From Candidatus Moraniibacteriota bacterium (GTDB lineage: Bacteria; Patescibacteriota; Minisyncoccia; Moranbacterales; GCA-2747515): a stretch of DNA of 5,577 bases. The position numbers were made by a program, and so were the translations under genes. The DNA is taken from assembly GCA_027069365.1 (NCBI GenBank), contig JALXES010000062.1:1-5577 (forward strand), in the 5' to 3' direction. Under the pieces are notes generated by a model. That model was not told the origin of the DNA. It ran no database searches and saw only the letters and a list, made by a program, of their open reading frames with translations. Each line of letters starts with the position of its first letter. Position 1 is the first letter of the stretch. Of this stretch, positions 1 to 5,577 are shown in pieces.

Positions 1-760
1 GAATGTACACCATATCCACATAGAAGAAAAACGCCTGCCTCATTGATGTATTGCGATGCACAAGAACATCTTGTGGCGCCATAAAAAGTGTCGCGATATC
101 AATATGTGTCACTGAAAAAAATCCTTTTGTAACACCAATAACCAAGATGCCAACTAGAGATATCAATGCAGATACAGCAAAGAAAACGCTGTATGTCCCA
201 AGCGCCACAAGGAATATTCTGTAGAATTTTTTTGTATGGACACGTGCATATAACACTGCAAAAATTACTGAAAATATAATCTCAAGGCGATAGCCAATGG
301 TAATGCCAGTTTGTGGTGTCTGCCCAAAAACTGTAAAAAACGATAACATGAGTCCCGGTATATTTGTAATCTCATAGTAACTAATGATTTCTCCTTTGTA
401 TACCAAATCAAAAAGCGGTGCAATCAAAATAATCGGCATTCCCGTGAGGAGTACTGGAAGCACATTATGCAACGGCAATTGCAATATCAATCGCCACACA
501 AAGACAAGTGCCATCAGCACAAAGAGGAATGCAAAGACCATTTCCGCAGAACGCAATGCGGTATCTACAAATGACTCCACTTTAAAACCACCGATCCACC
601 ATTGCTCTACCAAACGTATGACGATGATTGCAAAAAAGGTAGCGAAAAATGCATGCGCAGATAATGACCTTCTCTCAACCGTTTTGATTACACTAACAAA
701 AAAGTGCCATGGCGCACGTATTGATGCGAATACTTTTTTTGTGAGAGATTCATATAGCAT
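1..760 (-). CDS. Multi-pass membrane protein, function unknown (partial, C-terminus off window)
   Basis: The reverse strand is open from an ATG at 760-758 to the left edge, giving 253 residues with no stop. An in-frame TAG lies about 50 nt upstream, and this is the first ATG after it. The protein is strongly hydrophobic with about five or six predicted membrane segments, near residues 36-52, 72-94, 100-122, 133-146, 158-174 and 180-210. Basic residues follow several of them (HTKKFYR near 175-181). The first 35 residues are amphipathic and basic (KTVERR). I see no catalytic motif and do not recognise the family. It could be the N-terminal part of a larger membrane enzyme or transporter, since the C-terminus is missing. 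The gene is divergent from rpsF and has its own promoter at 767-795. The reading frame is well supported; the function is unknown. Confidence 0.8.
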   Translation of the reverse strand, partial: MLYESLTKKVFASIRAPWHFFVSVIKTVERRSLSAHAFFATFFAIIVIRLVEQWWIGGFKVESFVDTALRSAEMVFAFLFVLMALVFVWRLILQLPLHNVLPVLLTGMPIILIAPLFDLVYKGEIISYYEITNIPGLMLSFFTVFGQTPQTGITIGYRLEIIFSVIFAVLYARVHTKKFYRIFLVALGTYSVFFAVSALISLVGILVIGVTKGFFSVTHIDIATLFMAPQDVLVHRNTSMRQAFFFYVDMVYI

Positions 761-766
761 ACTGCC

Positions 767-795
767 ATCATACAGGGCTCTTGTCAGGCTGTCTA
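767..795 (-). promoter_or_regulatory. Sigma70-type promoter for the membrane protein gene, predicted leaderless
   Basis: Read on the minus strand, TAGACA (795-790) and TATGAT (772-767) are separated by 17 nt, each one base off consensus. Transcription should start about seven bases past the -10 box, at 760, which is the A of the ATG. The predicted mRNA therefore has no 5' leader and no ribosome binding site. The -35 box lies inside the spacer of the plus-strand rpsF promoter, so the two divergent promoters share DNA. Confidence 0.55.
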
Positions 796-809
796 CTGTG
801 TGCTACAAT
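781..809 (+). promoter_or_regulatory. Strong extended -10 promoter of the rpsF-ssb-rpsR operon
   Basis: TTGTCA (781-786), a 17-nt spacer and TACAAT (804-809) match the sigma70 consensus closely. TGC directly before the -10 box makes the extended -10 form TGCTACAAT. The predicted start is near 816, giving a leader of about 132 nt before the rpsF ATG at 948. The same TGC-plus-TACAAT arrangement recurs in the minus-strand promoter at 3295-3323. Confidence 0.75.
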
Positions 810-870
810 CACAGCAAACAAGCAAAGTCCCTGCGCATCCCGCTCCTTCGTGTGAGACCAGGATGTGCCA

Positions 871-925
871 CGTCCGCGTCGGTGCGGACATGCGCACGCG
901 CGGACGCCTTGTTTGCGTGTTTTTT
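871..925 (+). promoter_or_regulatory. Structured rpsF leader with competing hairpins, candidate bS6:bS18 control site
   Basis: The leader contains a perfect 8-bp stem, CGTCCGCG (871-878) with CGCGGACG (899-906). It is extended inside by GTGCG (882-886) with CGCAC (893-897). GTCCGC (872-877) can instead pair with a nearer GCGGAC (884-889), so two hairpins exclude each other. A third weak stem, CACGC (895-899) with GCGTG (915-919), runs straight into six T residues (920-925) and resembles a weak terminator. In many bacteria the bS6:bS18 complex binds its own operon leader at a stem with a bulged CCG. A CCG occurs at 874-876, but I cannot show it bulged. The structure is seen in the sequence; the regulatory role is inference. 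Confidence 0.5.
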
Positions 926-947
926 AATCCATTTAATATTCATTCGC

Positions 948-1403
948 ATGAAAGAATATGAACTCATCTACCTGATCGGTGCGTCGCAGAAGGAGAACTT
1001 CCGCGCCATTGATAAGGATGTCCACGCCATCGTTGAGAAGTTCGGCGGCACATGGCTGGACAAGCAAGTGACCGAAGAGCGTCGCTTGGCCTATGAGATC
1101 AAGCACGAGCGCAACGGCCTGTATGTCACACAGCGTTTTACGCTCCCGGATGTGGACGAGCGCGAGGAGAACGGCATTGAGCTGAGCGACAACCCTATCG
1201 CTGAAATCAACCGCGAGCTTGGTCTGCACACCGGCATCCTGCGCGCACTCATCGTCAGCGCAGAAGACCTGCCGCCGCTGATGACTAAGGAAGAGAAAGA
1301 TGCTCTGCGCATCAAAAAGCAGCAAGAACGTGAACTGCGGGAGAACAAGAACGTCTCCGGCGCCGCGATTGACAAGCAAGTGGAAGACGCGCTCCACATC
1401 TAA
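948..1403 (+). CDS. rpsF: 30S ribosomal protein bS6
   Basis: A 151-residue protein with the bS6 fold signature. It opens with MKEYELIYLIGA (first beta strand), followed by the alpha helix (residues 16-33) and FGGTWLDKQ. RRLAYEIKHERNGLYV (45-60) is the characteristic basic strand region, and the second helix (NPIAEINREL, 82-91) leads to the last strand (ILRALIV, 97-103). A highly charged tail (about 110-151) makes it longer than the roughly 100-residue core, as in several lineages. bS6 sits on the 30S platform, where it binds bS18 and the central domain of 16S rRNA. I chose the ATG at 948 because homology starts exactly there. The frame stays open upstream to 384, but that stretch has no ribosomal character and contains the promoter. 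No Shine-Dalgarno sequence is present. It is the first gene of the operon with ssb and rpsR. Confidence 0.96.
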   Translation: MKEYELIYLIGASQKENFRAIDKDVHAIVEKFGGTWLDKQVTEERRLAYEIKHERNGLYVTQRFTLPDVDEREENGIELSDNPIAEINRELGLHTGILRALIVSAEDLPPLMTKEEKDALRIKKQQERELRENKNVSGAAIDKQVEDALHI

Positions 1404-1411
1404 AACACATC

Positions 1412-1443
1412 ACTGTGAGTTTTTCATAATCAGCACTCACAGT
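1412..1443 (+). promoter_or_regulatory. Perfect 9-bp inverted repeat in the rpsF-ssb gap
   Basis: ACTGTGAGT (1412-1420) and ACTCACAGT (1435-1443) are exact reverse complements around a 14-nt AT-rich loop. The arms fill most of the 53-nt gap between the rpsF stop and the ssb ATG, ending 13 nt before that ATG. It could be an RNA hairpin tuning ssb translation or processing, or a DNA operator. No T-run follows, so it is not a terminator. Confidence 0.5.
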
Positions 1444-1456
1444 TAACACAATACGT

Positions 1457-1951
1457 ATGAACCTCAACAAAGTTCAACTCATCGGCCGCCTCACACGCGA
1501 CCCGGAAGTACGCACCACACAGAGCGGACAAACCGTTACGACCATTGGTCTGGCCACCAACCGCAACTGGACCGACAAAAACGGCCAGAAGCAGGAGCAG
1601 TCGGAGTACCACAACATCGTGCTGTGGGGTAAATTGGCAGAAATCGCCGGACAGTACCTCGTGAAGGGGCAAGAGGCCTACTTTGAAGGGCGACTGCAGA
1701 CACGCAAGTACCAGGCAAAAGACGGCTCCGAGCGCTACACAACGGAGATTGTCGCAGAAAACATGCAAATGGGTGCCAAGCCGCAGGGCGCAAGCTACAC
1801 GCCACGTCCGGCAGCTGCTCAAGCTGCAGCACCGGCAGCCGCAGGTGCTGCAAGTACACCAAAAGCAGCAGCGCCACAACAGTCTGAAGACATCCCTACC
1901 ATCAACCTTGACGACGTGGACGATGTCAACATTGAAGATGTACCATTCTAA
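1457..1951 (+). CDS. ssb: Single-stranded DNA-binding protein SSB
   Basis: A 164-residue SSB. The OB-fold DNA-binding domain spans about residues 1-106: MNLNKVQLIGRLTRDPEVR, then ATNRNW (33-38), YHNIVLWGKLAE (51-62), YFEGRLQTRKY (75-85) and RYTTEIVAENMQM (93-105). Aromatic residues at W38, Y51, W57 and Y85 match the DNA-stacking positions of bacterial SSBs. An Ala/Pro-rich disordered linker (about 112-143) follows. The acidic tail ends in NIEDVPF, which corresponds to the DDDIPF-type tip that recruits replication and repair proteins. SSB coats single-stranded DNA as a tetramer during replication, recombination and repair. The start at ATG 1457 is fixed by the homology, with an ACA-rich upstream region and no Shine-Dalgarno. 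It lies between rpsF and rpsR, the common bacterial arrangement. Confidence 0.97.
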   Translation: MNLNKVQLIGRLTRDPEVRTTQSGQTVTTIGLATNRNWTDKNGQKQEQSEYHNIVLWGKLAEIAGQYLVKGQEAYFEGRLQTRKYQAKDGSERYTTEIVAENMQMGAKPQGASYTPRPAAAQAAAPAAAGAASTPKAAAPQQSEDIPTINLDDVDDVNIEDVPF

Positions 1952-1961
1952 CAACACACCT

Positions 1962-2165
1962 ATGAAGAAACCGTGCATTATCGGTGGCAAGAGGATTGAC
2001 GTCATTGACTACAAAGACGCCGACTTCCTCCGCCGCTTCCTGAATTCTCAGGGCAAAATCTATCCCCCAAAGCGCTATGGTGTGAGCGCCTCATGCCAGC
2101 GCAAGATTGCCGCTGCTATCAAGCGCGCACGCTACATGGGGCTGCTGCCATACGTTGTAAAGTAG
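1962..2165 (+). CDS. rpsR: 30S ribosomal protein bS18
   Basis: A 67-residue protein carrying the bS18 signature IDYKDADFLRRFLNSQGKI (15-33). It is followed by PPKRYGVSASCQRKIAAAIKRARYMGLLPYV (35-65), the basic region that contacts 16S rRNA. bS18 partners bS6 on the 30S platform. The ATG at 1962 lies 10 nt after the ssb stop and gives the expected MKKPC start. The frame extends upstream inside ssb, but that part is a shadow of ssb. No Shine-Dalgarno is seen; the bases before the ATG read AACACACCT, repeated almost exactly before efp. It is the last gene of the rpsF-ssb-rpsR unit, followed by a hairpin with a T-run at 2175-2206. Confidence 0.97.
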   Translation: MKKPCIIGGKRIDVIDYKDADFLRRFLNSQGKIYPPKRYGVSASCQRKIAAAIKRARYMGLLPYVVK

Positions 2166-2174
2166 CACGAGAGG

Positions 2175-2206
2175 AAATCCGTTGCGCGTATGCCCAGCGG
2201 ATTTTT
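2175..2206 (+). terminator. Moderate intrinsic terminator between rpsR and efp
   Basis: AAATCCG (2175-2181) pairs with CGGATTT (2198-2204), with two further pairs (TG with CA) after a one-base mismatch and a loop of about 12 nt. A run of five T residues (2202-2206) closes it, but three of them are used in the stem, so termination is probably partial. It ends the ribosomal-protein operon 10 nt after the rpsR stop. I see no clear promoter between it and efp, so read-through may feed efp. Confidence 0.6.
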
Positions 2207-2230
2207 CTATCACACCTAACAATCACACCT

Positions 2231-2788
2231 ATGCTTAATCTCAGCGACATCAAGGCCGGCAAGCTCATCCTCCTGGATGGCGAGCCGCACAAAGTCCTCA
2301 CAAACGAACACTCCAAAATGGGCCGCATGGGCGCTGTGATGCGCACCAAGCTCAAAAACCTCATCACCGGCGCCGTCTTTGACAAGACCTTCCAAGGCGC
2401 CGACAAAGTGGACGAAGCCAGCGTCACCACGACCAAAGCGCAGTATCTGTACCGCGAGGGCAACGAGTTTGTATTTATGGACACCGCTACCTACGAGCAG
2501 TTCTCTCTGGATGCACGCGTTGTGGGAGATGCCACAGCCTATCTCACCGAGGGCTTGGAAGTGAGCATCATGATCTTCAATGACCAACCCATTGATCTGC
2601 GCCTCCCGGCGAAGGTCACACTCACTGTCACCGAAGCGCCGCCATCCATCAAGGGCAACACCAGCTCCGGCGGTGACAAGCTCGTGACCGTGGAGACCGG
2701 CGTCAAAATTACAACACCGCTCTTTGTAGAAGCCGGCGACAAGATTGTTGTCAACACGGACCGCGGCACGTATGTGAGCAAAGAATAG
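2231..2788 (+). CDS. efp: Elongation factor P (EF-P), arginine-tipped
   Basis: A 185-residue protein, the usual EF-P length. Domain I (about 1-62, KOW/SH3-like) contains LSDIKAGKLILLDGEPHKV and the tip loop EHSKMGRMGAVMRTKLKNL. Domain II (about 65-126) includes QYLYREGNEFVFMDTATYEQ. Domain III (about 128-185) carries APPSIKGNTSSGG and ends NTDRGTYVSKE, the EF-P C-terminal signature. EF-P binds between the ribosomal P and E sites and relieves stalling at consecutive prolines. The residue that reaches the peptidyl-transferase centre, Lys34 in E. coli, is Arg32 here. That argues against beta-lysylation; arginine-type EF-Ps are rhamnosylated by EarP in some proteobacteria, while others act unmodified. 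The ATG at 2231 follows a CACACCTA direct repeat (2211-2218 and 2225-2232) and no Shine-Dalgarno. Confidence 0.96.
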   Translation: MLNLSDIKAGKLILLDGEPHKVLTNEHSKMGRMGAVMRTKLKNLITGAVFDKTFQGADKVDEASVTTTKAQYLYREGNEFVFMDTATYEQFSLDARVVGDATAYLTEGLEVSIMIFNDQPIDLRLPAKVTLTVTEAPPSIKGNTSSGGDKLVTVETGVKITTPLFVEAGDKIVVNTDRGTYVSKE

Positions 2789-2814
2789 CTGCATCGCGCC
2801 ACCGACCGCGTAAG

Positions 2815-2845
2815 AAAAAACCCGTCCTCGTCAGGACGGGTTTTT
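2815..2845 (+). terminator. Strong, probably bidirectional terminator after efp
   Basis: CCCGTCCT (2821-2828) and AGGACGGG (2833-2840) form a perfect 8-bp GC-rich stem with a CGTC loop. Five T residues follow (2841-2845) and six A residues precede (2815-2820), so the stem extends with A-T pairs and works in either direction. It ends the plus-strand efp transcript and can also stop the convergent minus-strand transcript of the cysteine-rich gene. Confidence 0.92.
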
Positions 2846-2966
2846 GTGAGCGTCTCACATGTTCTTCAATTGTCTTTTTGTTTGTGTTTGTGTGCGCGAC
2901 TTCGGCGTCGCGCAAGTAAAGTACTTTGTTTGTGTTCTGTGGAAGTGTGCGTGTGACCACGCACAC
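2845..2966. repeat. Intergenic tract with three hairpins and a palindrome
   Basis: No gene is seen between the efp terminator and the stop of the cysteine-rich gene. The tract holds TGTGAG (2845-2850) with CTCACA (2854-2859), and GCGCGAC (2894-2900) with GTCGCGC (2907-2913). It also has the palindrome AAAGTACTTT (2918-2927), and a 9-bp stem GTGTGCGTG (2945-2953) with CACGCACAC (2958-2966) around a TGAC loop. The last lies 4 nt past the stop of the minus-strand gene at 2971, so it may protect that mRNA 3' end; no T-run follows it. Confidence 0.5.
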
Positions 2967-2970
2967 CGTC

Positions 2971-3183
2971 CTACAAGAGTCCCATCATGTTAAACGCGCT
3001 GAGCGTCAACATTGGCATGAGCATCAGGAGTGTTGCAAACTTTGCATCCTCACTGACGTTGAACTCTACGTCACATAAGCCGCCGGAGCAGGTGCCTGTC
3101 CCCTCGCAGGAACATGCCTCTGTCTCTGCTGACTCTTCTCTGCCGGAGCATCCACAGCCCCCGCACGTGTGTGTTTCTTCCAT
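2971..3183 (-). CDS. Small cysteine-rich protein with hydrophobic C-terminal segment, function unknown
   Basis: A 70-residue reading frame starting MEETHTCGGCGCSG. It has seven cysteines in the first 37 residues (7, 10, 12, 24, 26, 32, 37) arranged as CxxCxC, CxC and CxxxxC. The spacer is acidic (REESAETEA), and a hydrophobic stretch from about 48 to 70 (KFATLLMLMPMLTLSAFNM) could span or anchor to a membrane. The clustered cysteines suggest metal or iron-sulfur binding or disulfides; no family is recognised. No signal peptide precedes the cysteines, so a cytosolic head with a C-tail anchor is possible. A near-consensus promoter and a structured leader lie about 105-140 nt upstream on the same strand, and a strong hairpin follows the stop, which supports a real gene. 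The start has no Shine-Dalgarno but an ACA-rich upstream region like ssb and rpsR. It could still be a chance frame. Confidence 0.6.
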   Translation of the reverse strand: MEETHTCGGCGCSGREESAETEACSCEGTGTCSGGLCDVEFNVSEDAKFATLLMLMPMLTLSAFNMMGLL

Positions 3184-3214
3184 AGTTTGTGTTTTTATGG
3201 ACGGATTACGACAT

Positions 3215-3277
3215 AAAAAAATCGGGCATCTGAAGAGCTCTTTCCGGAGGAAATGCGCTCAACAGAATCACCCGATT
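3215..3277 (-). terminator. Intrinsic terminator inside the leader of the cysteine-rich gene (copy A)
   Basis: On the minus strand, AATCGGG (3277-3271) pairs with CCCGATT (3226-3220), followed by a run of seven T residues (3221-3215). The 44-nt loop contains smaller stems, TTTCC with GGAAA and the palindrome AAGAGCTCTT. With a start near 3288, termination would release an RNA of about 74 nt before the gene at 3183. Its 5' arm overlaps a competing hairpin, GAATC-GGGT-GATTC (3278-3265). Confidence 0.65.
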
Positions 3278-3324
3278 CCTTTATTGACACTTCTATTGTA
3301 GCACGCCAAATTGCTTTTGTCAAT
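3264..3324 (-). repeat. 61-bp promoter-leader element, copy A
   Basis: This block aligns without gaps to 4779-4839 with 48 of 61 bases identical by hand count. Identity starts at ATTGACA (-35 region) and ends at TCT after the small hairpin; sequence outside is not similar. Shared parts are ATTGACA, AAAGC, TTTGGC, AGTGTC, TAAAG and TCGGGTGA. Identity in the promoter spacer and the first transcribed bases exceeds what a promoter alone needs, so it is likely a duplicated regulatory unit. Confidence 0.75.
3295..3323 (-). promoter_or_regulatory. Near-consensus promoter for the cysteine-rich gene (copy A)
   Basis: On the minus strand, TTGACA (3323-3318) is a perfect -35 box, followed by 17 nt and TACAAT (3300-3295), preceded by TGC (extended -10). 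The predicted start is near 3288. A 7-bp inverted repeat, ATTGACA (3324-3318) with TGTCAAT, flanks the core promoter; its second arm lies just after the start site and could serve as an operator half-site. Confidence 0.8.
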
Positions 3325-3543
3325 GCTGCCGCTCGTGGCATGTTCTGCCATCCCTTCCCTGCCGCGTGTACGGCATCGCGACGGCGAACTGCAGATGTGT
3401 AACGGGCACTGCATGCGTGACATGCACATAGCGATGTCTGGTGTGTGCTCTCACGCTACGCACTGTACCCCAGCATATGACGCACGTGCGCAGCGTGACC
3501 GTGTTGTGGTTGTGTGTTGTTAATGATTACCGACCGTGCGTGG
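3325..3543. other. Intergenic region with one long imperfect hairpin
   Basis: About 220 nt between promoter copy A and the stop of the surface protein gene show no convincing gene. TCACGCTACGCAC (3451-3463) pairs with GTGCGCAGCGTGA (3486-3498) over 13 positions with a single A/C mismatch and a 22-nt loop. CGCACGTGCG (3481-3490) is a perfect palindrome inside it. Lying 46 nt past the surface gene stop, it could be a 3'-end structure of that mRNA, although there is no T-run. Confidence 0.45.
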
Positions 3544-4536
3544 TTACGCATTTGTCGCAATAGTGAATGTCACCACCTGGCTGTACTCTCCCGCAACCGT
3601 GTCACCGTCAATCGCTGCCTTGTAGGTGATGTCAAACTTGTCTTTGTTGACAGTTGTTGCACTGTCTACAATTTCCTTTGGGCCGTCAGCGGCAGTTGGT
3701 AGCGCATCGTCGCCGCTCCCAAAGAGCGTGTTGTCCGTGTCCTCTACGGCCAGCGTGACAACGCTGTCATCAGACCGGAAGTTGGACACTTCTATACCGT
3801 ACCCTTCCGTGCCGGCTGTCACAACATCTGTAGTGATGCGGTCAATAGTGTTCAGTCCACCGGCATCGCGTAAGTCACCGTCGGTTTCCACATAGACCTG
3901 CACACCGGAACGGTTGTTGGAGTGCACCTCGTAGGTCTGCGTCACCTCTTTGACAGAAGCGACAGACAGTGTGCCGAGGTCCATTGTGACGTCATCTACA
4001 GCCAGCGTTGTAAACAGTGGAACTGTCGCCGTCACGTCCGTTGTGTTGTCATTGGTCTTGATCGCCAGACCGAAGTCATAGGGATACTTCTCAAAGTTGT
4101 TGATGTTGATTGCCACGGACTGCTGCGCGTAGGTTGTTGCCGTGTAGCTTGATAGCACATTGGCCATTTCCACCGTGACCGGTGTGTTGGCGCTGATCGC
4201 GCTGCCCACCGTCAGTGTGATGGAGTTGTCCACTGCATCAATAGCATGTGCTGTCGTCGCGCCATTGAGTGTCACCGTGTCATCGCTGGTGTCACTGTCC
4301 ACAGGCGCTTCCGTGACCGGGAATGTAAAGATAATCTTGTCACCGCCGGCGAGTGCCTCACCCGTGGTAAACGAGATTGTCGTGGTCCCCGGCGTGCTGC
4401 CGGAGCCGGTCTGCTCCCAGACACCATCAGAGATTTTCTTTGGTGTCGCGGCATTCGCATGCGGCAGTGCAACCATCGCATTTGCAAACGCACAAAGCGT
4501 CAGGAAGGAAACCTTCCGCAATACATTCTTGTTCAT
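3544..4536 (-). CDS. Secreted beta-rich surface protein, function unknown
   Basis: A 330-residue protein with a clear Sec signal peptide: basic MNKNVLRKVS, hydrophobic core FLTLCAFANAMVAL and a likely signal peptidase I site after ANA (residues 27-29). The mature part is rich in Thr, Val, Ser and Asp and poor in Lys, typical of beta-sandwich surface proteins. An N-terminal module (about 35-150) contains TTTISFTTGEALAGGDKIIFTFPV. A second module (about 165-330) contains TMDLGTLSVASVKEVTQTYE, SNNRSGVQVYVETDGDL and GTEGYGIEV, and ends YKAAIDGDTVAGEYSQVV plus a short TFTI strand. The latter pattern resembles secreted proteins I associate with Patescibacteria, and loosely the C-terminal WxL/coat-like sandwiches of Gram-positives. 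No sortase signal, lipobox or C-terminal membrane helix is present, so attachment would be non-covalent or the protein is released. A 267-nt leader with a terminator and promoter (copy B) precedes it. The function is not known. Confidence 0.88.
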   Translation of the reverse strand: MNKNVLRKVSFLTLCAFANAMVALPHANAATPKKISDGVWEQTGSGSTPGTTTISFTTGEALAGGDKIIFTFPVTEAPVDSDTSDDTVTLNGATTAHAIDAVDNSITLTVGSAISANTPVTVEMANVLSSYTATTYAQQSVAININNFEKYPYDFGLAIKTNDNTTDVTATVPLFTTLAVDDVTMDLGTLSVASVKEVTQTYEVHSNNRSGVQVYVETDGDLRDAGGLNTIDRITTDVVTAGTEGYGIEVSNFRSDDSVVTLAVEDTDNTLFGSGDDALPTAADGPKEIVDSATTVNKDKFDITYKAAIDGDTVAGEYSQVVTFTIATNA

Positions 4537-4580
4537 ATGTCAACGAGTTATGTTTTTATTTTTGTTTTTTCTGCAAAGGT

Positions 4581-4664
4581 CATGCAGTGCATGTGGTTGT
4601 GTCACACATCATGCTGCCCTCTGACCTCTGCGCCGCCCTCCTTAGAGCGATACAAAAATGTATC
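4581..4664. repeat. Two inverted repeats in the surface-gene leader
   Basis: CATGCAGTGCATG (4581-4593) is a perfect odd palindrome with a 6-bp arm. GATACA (4649-4654) and TGTATC (4659-4664) form a 6-bp inverted repeat around four A residues. Both lie in the untranslated stretch between the leader terminator and the ATG at 4536, where they could be operators or RNA hairpins. No gene is seen in 4537-4749. Confidence 0.4.
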
Positions 4665-4749
4665 AAACATACTCTCGGCTTCCCCCTCCATGACCGTGGC
4701 CCGTACGCTGCCCGGCACAAAGCGGTGTCGCCCCTCTAGAACACCCTAG

Positions 4750-4793
4750 AAAAAAAAGCCGAGGCCCTCCCGTACGGAAGAGTCACCCGACTT
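4750..4793 (-). terminator. Intrinsic terminator inside the surface-gene leader (copy B)
   Basis: On the minus strand, AAGTCGGG (4793-4786) pairs with CTCGGCTT (4763-4756), six Watson-Crick and two G-T pairs. It is followed by a T-run ending at 4750, eight T residues of which two are in the stem. A small inner stem, CTC-CC with GG-GAG, fills the loop. From a start near 4803 it would release an RNA of about 54 nt. It lies at the same place relative to the promoter as terminator A. It could also serve the upstream ParA-like gene, whose stop is at 4841. Confidence 0.65.
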
Positions 4794-4839
4794 CTTTAAC
4801 GACACTAGAAGTATAGCATGCCAAAACGCTTTTGTCAAT
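4779..4839 (-). repeat. 61-bp promoter-leader element, copy B
   Basis: The second copy of the element at 3264-3324, in the same orientation and the same position relative to a downstream minus-strand gene. The small hairpin AGTC-GGGT-GACT (4792-4781) matches AATC-GGGT-GATT of copy A, and one A-T pair is replaced by G-C, a compensatory change. The block begins 2 nt after the stop codon of the ParA-like gene. Copy differences cluster in the -10 box and the first transcribed bases. Confidence 0.75.
4810..4838 (-). promoter_or_regulatory. Near-consensus promoter for the surface protein gene (copy B)
   Basis: On the minus strand, a perfect TTGACA (4838-4833), 17 nt and TATACT (4815-4810) preceded by TGC give a strong extended -10 promoter. 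The predicted start is near 4803, so the leader to the ATG at 4536 is about 267 nt. Confidence 0.8.
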
Positions 4840-4840
4840 A

Positions 4841-5577
4841 TCAGTATGCATGGAGGATTGCAAGCATGCTCTCTGAGAGCGCACCGAACTCATCCTTTGC
4901 TTTTTCGATATTTTCTTTTGTGCCAATTTGCGTCGCCTCAAGCTTCTTGGGATCCACTGTAAAGACTGCATCCCCGGTCTCCTGACAGAGCGCAGGAATG
5001 CGCCCATAATCTTGTATTTCTTGCAGGGCCCTCTCATGCGATGTTGCCACGAGGTCATTTCTGCAATGCTTTTCTGAGAGGTATTTTTGCACAGTTGGCG
5101 GGATTTGTGCAATCCACTTACGATGATCCTTGATTGGCTGCTTTCCATAGACATTGTAAGCGTTGAGAATATAGCCAATGAACAACGCCTCTCCGTTCAG
5201 CACAAACCTACTCTCAATTTCACCGGATAATGCCGCACCTGTATCACGCCAATTACTCTTCCACCGTTCCAGTGTCGTGCCGAGATTTTCAATGCCTTGC
5301 AGACTAAAGGCGTCCGGGTTCATCGGAACAACGAAGTAATCCGTGCCTAAGAGAATGACACGATTGAGCAGTCCCATGGTTGGCGACGTATCAACAACAA
5401 AAATGTCAACCTGCTCCTCCATACCCTTCTTTTTGAGAAAACGATTGATAGCGCTTGTGTTGAAATACCCAATCTGCTCGCCCGCAGCAGCCTGATTGTA
5501 TGCAGTTGTGAGAAGGTTCTCATATGCAGAAAGCCTGATGTCACCACGCACAAGAAAGAGATTTGCAGGGTTTATAC
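4841..5577 (-). CDS. ParA/Soj-family ATPase (partial, N-terminus off window)
   Basis: The minus-strand frame is open from the right edge to a TGA at 4843-4841, giving 244 residues. A GTG at 5551 is only an internal codon, because the conserved text already reads NLFLVRGDIRLSAYE across it, so the true start and the Walker A P-loop lie beyond the window. The stretch VDIFVVDTSPTMGLLNRVIL is the Walker B/switch II region (hhhhDTSP), followed by GTDYFVVPMNPDAFSLQGIENL, typical of ParA/MinD-like ATPases. The C-terminal part (FIGYILNAYNVYGKQPIKD and on) resembles stand-alone chromosomal or plasmid ParA-like proteins. Such ATPases position DNA or protein cargo by nucleotide-dependent dimerisation. 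No ParB follows it; the next gene downstream encodes the secreted surface protein. Whether it partitions DNA here or positions another cargo cannot be said. Confidence 0.85.
   Translation of the reverse strand, partial: INPANLFLVRGDIRLSAYENLLTTAYNQAAAGEQIGYFNTSAINRFLKKKGMEEQVDIFVVDTSPTMGLLNRVILLGTDYFVVPMNPDAFSLQGIENLGTTLERWKSNWRDTGAALSGEIESRFVLNGEALFIGYILNAYNVYGKQPIKDHRKWIAQIPPTVQKYLSEKHCRNDLVATSHERALQEIQDYGRIPALCQETGDAVFTVDPKKLEATQIGTKENIEKAKDEFGALSESMLAILHAY

Follow-up and report, generated by a model that had tools for sequence, protein, structure and literature searches.

A predicted promoter-terminator leader with a GGGTG box ahead of cell-wall and surface genes in Moraniibacteriota

The two leader copies and the genes behind them

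The stretch of DNA analysed here (the window) comprises 5,577 nucleotides (nt) of Candidatus Moraniibacteriota bacterium, a member of the candidate phyla radiation (CPR) (assembly GCA_027069365.1, contig JALXES010000062.1, positions 1-5,577 of the forward strand). A leader element is present in it twice, once ahead of a gene for a protein of 70 amino acids (aa) and once ahead of a gene for a protein of 330 aa. We argue that the two copies are members of a single family of leaders, each made of a predicted sigma70-type promoter and a predicted terminator carrying the word GGGTG, that many genomes of the order have members of this family upstream of genes for the cell wall and the cell surface, and that it is likely to act as a conditional transcription attenuator. 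The features of the locus are as follows.

3295..3323, minus strand: copy 1 promoter from a consensus scan; -35 box TTGACA at 3323-3318, 17-nt spacer, -10 box TACAAT at 3300-3295, TG before the -10 box; predicted start (+1) at 3288
3269..3273, minus strand: copy 1 GGGTG box in the 5' arm of the hairpin, +16 from the predicted start; conserved in relatives
3215..3284, minus strand: copy 1 predicted intrinsic terminator; A-rich 5' flank, hairpin, 7-base U-tract at 3221-3215
2971..3183, minus strand: gene for the 70-aa protein; N-terminal cysteines (CxxC), acidic linker, C-terminal hydrophobic segment; start 31 nt past the copy 1 U-tract
4810..4838, minus strand: copy 2 promoter from a consensus scan; -35 box TTGACA at 4838-4833, 17-nt spacer, -10 box TATACT at 4815-4810, TG before the -10 box; predicted start (+1) at 4803
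4784..4788, minus strand: copy 2 GGGTG box, +16 from the predicted start
4750..4797, minus strand: copy 2 predicted intrinsic terminator; hairpin and 8-base U-tract at 4757-4750
3544..4536, minus strand: gene for the 330-aa protein; signal-like N-terminus, resembles the C domain of the CPR Pam pilus pilin; start 213 nt past the copy 2 U-tract
4841..5575, minus strand: ParA/AAA_31-type gene by Pfam, the upstream neighbour of copy 2, outside the element

The minus-strand segments 3264-3324 and 4779-4839 are identical at 48 of 61 positions without gaps, as an earlier note on this DNA had reported, and they form the longest repeat family in the window. A blastn search of the pair across the whole genome of the same bacterium gives E = 1.1e-8, so a chance match of the two copies is unlikely. 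The note had described the flanks as unrelated and the repeat as covering a promoter and the first ~30 transcribed bases. The promoter part of that description holds, and the flanks do differ in sequence but not in structure: in both copies the bases that follow are predicted to pair with the repeat, forming a hairpin with a U-tract behind it, and the transcribed bases of the repeat are the 5' arm of this hairpin, which the note had missed. The 61-base repeat is, on prediction, the front half of a longer element in which a promoter is followed by a promoter-proximal terminator.

Each promoter matches 11 of 12 sigma70 consensus bases, and the consensus scan of 2800-5000 revealed no further promoter of this type; that of copy 2 follows immediately on the upstream ParA-type gene, whose stop codon is at 4843-4841. 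The first base of the hairpin stem is +5 or +7, 4-6 bases after the predicted start. Copy 1 folds with a minimum free energy of -35.5 kcal/mol (z -5.5, equalled by 0/200 shuffles) and copy 2 with -24.6 kcal/mol (z -2.9, equalled by 2/200 shuffles), and on these statistics a terminator-like hairpin accompanies the promoter in both copies. The terminator-like hairpin is the core of the element. The earlier idea of a promoter-leader element carrying information at the level of RNA gains support. Its further suggestion, that the words AAAGC and TTTGGC in the promoter spacer are regulator sites, is not supported: a similar spacer is found in a few members of the same family (L042 most), the spacers of other elements differ widely, and the spacer is without conservation beyond close relatives.

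The proteins encoded behind the two copies are of surface type, as had been proposed: one is small, with cysteines and a hydrophobic tail, and the other appears to be secreted. The 70-aa protein has no Pfam match to E 0.1 and no NCBIfam match to E 0.01, and its AlphaFold model shows a helix at residues 45-67 with a predicted local distance difference test score (pLDDT) of about 90, within a model of low overall confidence (mean pLDDT 62.6). The 330-aa protein scores 49 bits (E 6.7e-13) against NF058581 (CPR Pam pilin), short of the curated cut-off of 55 bits; we read this as a resemblance and not as membership. It has no match in other genomes of the order (54 searched, its own included) and two weaker relatives within its own genome. 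One of them (G000:C119:194-1132, L037) is 47% identical and sits behind another gene; no such hairpin is found in its 178 upstream bases, and the single GGGTG there lies inside the Shine-Dalgarno-like AGGAGGGTGG just before the start. Since the 79% identity of the two copies reaches across both the promoter and the 5' arm, a copy-1-like element was probably duplicated to give copy 2 ahead of the pilin-like gene, which would thereby have gained the same control.

Two other matches in the genome were considered as third copies and rejected. One is an exact match of 88 bases at the end of contig C84; this contig also has the ParA-type gene and appears to be another strain's form of the locus. The difference between C84 and the window is a probable case of strain heterogeneity in the assembly. 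C84 (G000:C84:9000-13839, L005) carries the ParA-type gene at its full length of 352 aa and ends inside copy 2. The match near trpS on contig C42 covers only 23 bases around the -10 box.

Related leaders in the order and the GGGTG box

A search with the 70-aa protein found 28 places in 25 of the 54 genomes of the order, its own genome included. Three of these (L062, L065 and L066) lack the family pattern and were dropped, which leaves 25 genes including that of the window. They encode small proteins, mostly with N-terminal cysteines and with a conserved C-terminal hydrophobic segment, and the same layout recurs upstream of them: a TTGAC-17-TATAMT-like promoter, a short and mostly A-rich stretch, a hairpin with (C)GGGTG in its 5' arm, a U-tract, a spacer and the start codon. 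In a mechanical scan, a promoter was found for 24 of the 25 genes, a terminator-like hairpin for 22, GGGTG in the 5' arm for 19 and GGGTG anywhere upstream for 22. The one gene without a promoter (L060) is cut by a contig end, and L058 has GGGTG inside the promoter spacer and no hairpin that we could find. This family of small CxxC proteins, unnamed so far and marked by a hydrophobic C-terminal segment, is the most constant member of the gene set described below. A protein pattern search was made on a closer subset of 11 family members. At E <= 0.01 the family is matched by 284 database proteins, and the 11 named family records comprise 6 from Candidatus Moraniibacteriota, 3 from Pacebacteria or Paceibacterota and 2 from Micavibrio. 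Records titled Micavibrio sp. (L185, L194; DYDB01) show places as in genome G005 of this CPR family, and their title looks like that of a mislabelled metagenome-assembled genome. With regard to neighbours, recA lies just upstream of the element and the 70-aa-type gene in six genomes (G003:C46, G006:C6, G028:C2, G034:C5, G042:C10 and G048:C7), and efp is convergent behind the 70-aa-type gene in some loci (the window, L047, L060 and L116).

A covariance model (R1), trained on leaders that contain GGGTG, scores the two window copies at E 3.0e-10 and 1.2e-9 and has further matches in relatives. We read the gene set from the first gene behind each of the 40 best model matches that do not adjoin a known 70-aa gene (E 1.1e-8 to 3.1e-4). 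Six recurring families account for 31 of the 40: the 70-aa type (8), CAP (9; eight assigned by Pfam and L110 via the CAP search place G001:C4:97009), MurA (4), YkuD L,D-transpeptidases (3), an unnamed family with a GYPIE motif that is transglycosylase-like by eye only (5), and surface proteins of the INFQGKVVN type whose weak likeness to an adhesive fibre N-domain is below the cut-off (2). In three of the CAP loci (L110, L114 and L130) murA follows the CAP gene. The further copies for which the earlier note had suggested a search were thus found in relatives, ahead of envelope genes, but not in the genome of the window, where only the two copies score strongly and the next match besides the C84 end has E = 0.11; the family shows itself in relatives and not as many copies within this genome.

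At E <= 1e-3 the model has a match in 39 of the 54 genomes of the order, and in 22 of 37 after the 17 training genomes are removed. A draw from the phylum gave a match at this threshold in 11 of 191 other genomes, a comparison that is only indicative because fewer candidates were scored per genome (23 vs 83). The model match ends 6-40 nt before the start codon in 17 of the 30 genes measured. By eye, a clear Shine-Dalgarno sequence is missing from many of the genes at L096-L135, whose start codons lie shortly behind the U-tract in an A-rich context (e.g., AAAAAT ATG).

We also chose loci by protein family instead of by the model, taking the 30 best-scoring loci each for CAP, murA, mraZ, YkuD and RecA. 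Those counted are 29 for CAP (L229 is without a start), 28 for murA (L172 has a short upstream and L173 is cut by the contig), 27 for mraZ (without L253, L257 and L264), 28 for YkuD (L271 and L286 are too short) and 29 for RecA (L317 is too short). A strict scan of the 300 nt upstream (260 nt for mraZ) for terminator-like hairpins whose 5' arm contains GGGTG is positive for 14/29 CAP leaders and for none of the RecA (0/29) or mraZ (0/27) leaders. On reading, at least six more CAP leaders have GGGTG hairpins (L212, L215, L218, L224, L226 and L234), a count to be taken for CAP by itself as the other sets were not read with equal care. The strict scan gives 0/28 for murA within 300 nt, which is not a pure negative control because murA is partly targeted from further upstream. 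The bare word GGGTG is present upstream of 24/29 CAP genes within 300 nt. When the model is applied to these sets, all 14 matches at E <= 0.002 in the 30 CAP loci are upstream and on the strand of the gene, as are all 6 matches at E <= 0.01 in the 30 murA loci, some of them more than 300 nt away or before a CAP gene; the 30 mraZ loci give one match at E <= 0.01.

To assess the conservation of the hairpin, we used 19 of 24 elements, those in a common register (training alignment A3); L044, L050, L051, L056 and L057, which have another word or register, were left out. Pairing is kept in 92.2% of the alignment cells compared to at most 56.7% with slid partners, and shuffling the letters of the 3' side gives a mean of 86.8%, with 0/500 shuffles reaching the real value. 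The base pair below CGGGUG occurs as six pair types with 9 double changes. The CGGGUG side itself is invariant in the 19 elements, and its partners drift to G-U or break. Of 64 elements, 42 have GGGTG at +14 to +18 and 55 have it at +7 to +19. In four elements (L115, L122, L128 and L135) the register is shifted, which leaves the leading one or two G without a partner or opposite U-tract bases, and GGGTG is still kept. Among other terminator-like hairpins of the fetched loci, GGGTG is in the 5' arm of 8/473, compared to 37/42 scan-recognised elements, most of which came from the model that includes GGGTG. From the fixed word against a drifting 3' arm, the shifted registers and the rarity in other hairpins, GGGTG seems to be conserved as a word in its own right, in addition to its part in the hairpin. 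A second GGGTG stands 11-14 nt further on in L054, L057, L130, L214, L217, L223, L224, L228 and L234, which are mostly CAP leaders; paired words of this kind would suit an RNA-binding protein.

A possible mechanism and its alternatives

Two properties expected of an attenuator are present: as read from the sequence, a promoter and an intrinsic terminator lie upstream of and in line with the gene, and the arrangement is conserved across species ahead of the same genes. RNA polymerase would start about 15 nt before GGGTG, and the default product would be a short RNA, of about 55-75 nt for the window copies, ending at the U-tract. If a trans-acting factor held the GGGUG of the nascent RNA, pairing of the 5' arm would be blocked, termination would fail and the downstream gene would be transcribed. 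We infer all steps from termination onward, including the GGGUG-binding factor. In 55 of the 64 elements only 6-18 nt precede GGGTG, which makes an antiterminator in cis unlikely in those elements and a trans-acting binder of GGGUG our best guess. A tentative extension, which we regard as possible rather than probable, is a dedicated antitermination system of Moraniibacteriota. One candidate RNA-binding factor would read GGGUG and jointly turn on the synthesis and remodelling of peptidoglycan (MurA, CAP, L,D-transpeptidase), adhesive and pilin-like surface proteins and the small membrane-anchored CxxC protein, for example as a switch between the free and the host-attached state of an ultrasmall bacterium.

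The promoter and the terminator also delimit a complete short RNA, and the element could instead be a set of small-RNA genes whose terminated transcripts act in trans, the gene behind being reached by leaky readthrough. The greA and rnk leaders are attenuated leaders that may also act in trans, according to an excerpt of the paper that describes them (PMC2965389). We consider this explanation unlikely for the present element, which is tied to the same downstream gene families across many genera, has loops and 3' arms that vary and has a model match that ends so close to the start codon in more than half of the genes measured. Somewhat less probable again is control at the level of DNA, with GGGTG as an operator just past the start site for, say, MraZ or another regulator of the cell wall, the hairpin being secondary. 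The narrow distance between GGGTG and the promoter, a gene set that belongs to the cell envelope, and the presence of MraZ in 48/54 genomes would all agree with it, but an operator, whichever DNA-binding regulator may read it, leaves the matching 3' arm and the U-tract unexplained. We rejected MraZ as the owner of GGGTG; it is an unlikely one because its own leaders use AAGTGG (23/27 mraZ leaders, 0/64 elements) and have no GGGTG terminator hairpin (0/27). The lowest probability goes to ordinary constitutive leaders, in which a strong promoter is followed by a 5' hairpin that does no more than damp or stabilise the transcript, with no regulation. No regulator is known and GGGUG also makes a stable hairpin base, as such leaders would have it, but the word is kept at a shifted register, is rare in other terminator-like hairpins, and its hairpin is enriched before one functional class. 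A leader peptide was set aside as well: GTG-started open reading frames can be read in the window copies (MSIKESGDS.. and MSLKKSGDS..), and the leaders of relatives, read by eye, have no consistent frame.

Several observations weigh against a conditional attenuator common to a set of envelope genes. The start sites and the termination are computational predictions, and no regulator was found, nor was a systematic search made for competing antiterminator folds. Changes on both sides of the stem occur in only 1/10 pairs, the one below CGGGUG, a count also reached by 495/500 shuffles; support for the pairing comes from the other measures. GGGTG is missing from 4/64 elements. The model-first counts are biased towards GGGTG because of the training leaders, and only the protein-first counts are free of that. 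Nine of the 40 best matches precede unrelated genes (e.g., Fe-ADH and transketolase), two of them (L125 and L134) with GGGTG not at the usual place, and 15/54 genomes of the order have no model match at E <= 1e-3. The genome of the window has only two strongly scoring copies, its GYPIE-type gene lacks such a leader and it has no CAP gene by Pfam. The strict scan finds only 2/28 YkuD leaders, so that L,D-transpeptidases with the element are a minority, and the bare word GGGTG is not rare elsewhere (mraZ 7/27 within 260 nt, RecA 9/29, YkuD 7/28).

Relation to described systems

Families of attenuators that precede several genes are already known. Naville and Gautheret (2010, PMC2965389), in the excerpt used here, describe attenuator "regulons" and leaders of the greA and rnk type, in which intrinsic terminators recur across species, with some clusters before non-homologous genes. 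The present element likewise has intrinsic terminators in gene leaders across species. The examples in that excerpt come from Proteobacteria, bacilli and Clostridia and involve antiterminator structures or an origin in repeat elements, whereas here the conserved word is GGGTG at a narrow distance from the start, in a CPR order.

Promoter-proximal decisions ahead of a leader terminator are also made in antitermination of the lambda-Q and put type, and in this respect the element resembles them. No phage context was seen at the element, and Q-like or put-like sequences were not looked for.

In T-boxes, the sequence AGGGUGGNACCGCG contains GGGUG as the 5' side of an antiterminator that competes with a terminator (PMC8002221, in excerpt), so that GGGUG and a leader terminator are common to both. 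The present leader is too short for stem I and a specifier loop, and the genes behind it belong to the envelope and not to amino-acid metabolism. We rejected the T-box as the owner of GGGTG: the Rfam T-box model has no match in the window (the whole window at gathering scores, and 3100-4900 at E <= 5), and of the T-box sequence ACCGCG is found in 0/64 elements and GGGTGG in 7/64.

The MraZ sites of Mollicutes are AAAGTG[T/G] repeats (PMC8475190, in excerpt) and share with the element the cell-wall-related genes and a GTG-containing box near the promoter. The mraZ leaders of the order (L237-L266) differ from it in carrying AAGTGG boxes, in two or more copies in 14/27, in place of a GGGTG terminator. 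As these boxes are close to the Mollicutes repeats, autoregulation of MraZ looks conserved in this CPR order, as far as sequence can suggest it.

No Rfam 15 family reaches its gathering threshold in the window (at 3100-4900 and E <= 5 only OrzO-P is listed, with 19.9 bits against a cut-off of 60, E 3.4), in line with the earlier note, which knew of no described family with this layout. Such an element was not described in the literature found on terminators, leaders, antitermination or riboswitches of Patescibacteria, CPR or Moranbacteria, partly among the matches listed, and the "Pam pilus" is not mentioned among the literature matches listed. In sum, neither Rfam, searched with the window copies, nor the literature searches yielded this GGGTG box with its CPR-order setting and its set of envelope genes.

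The differentiation of host-attached versus free cells of Patescibacteria has been described as completely unknown (PMC11665869, in excerpt). A leader element common to envelope genes across the order, which would likely let the cell turn cell-wall and surface genes up or down together, would offer a handle in the form of a probably co-regulated gene set, one conserved word and a bait RNA for its regulator.

Elsewhere in the window, the plus strand at 948-2788 carries rpsF, ssb, rpsR and efp in an ordinary run, and efp is followed by a terminator-like hairpin.

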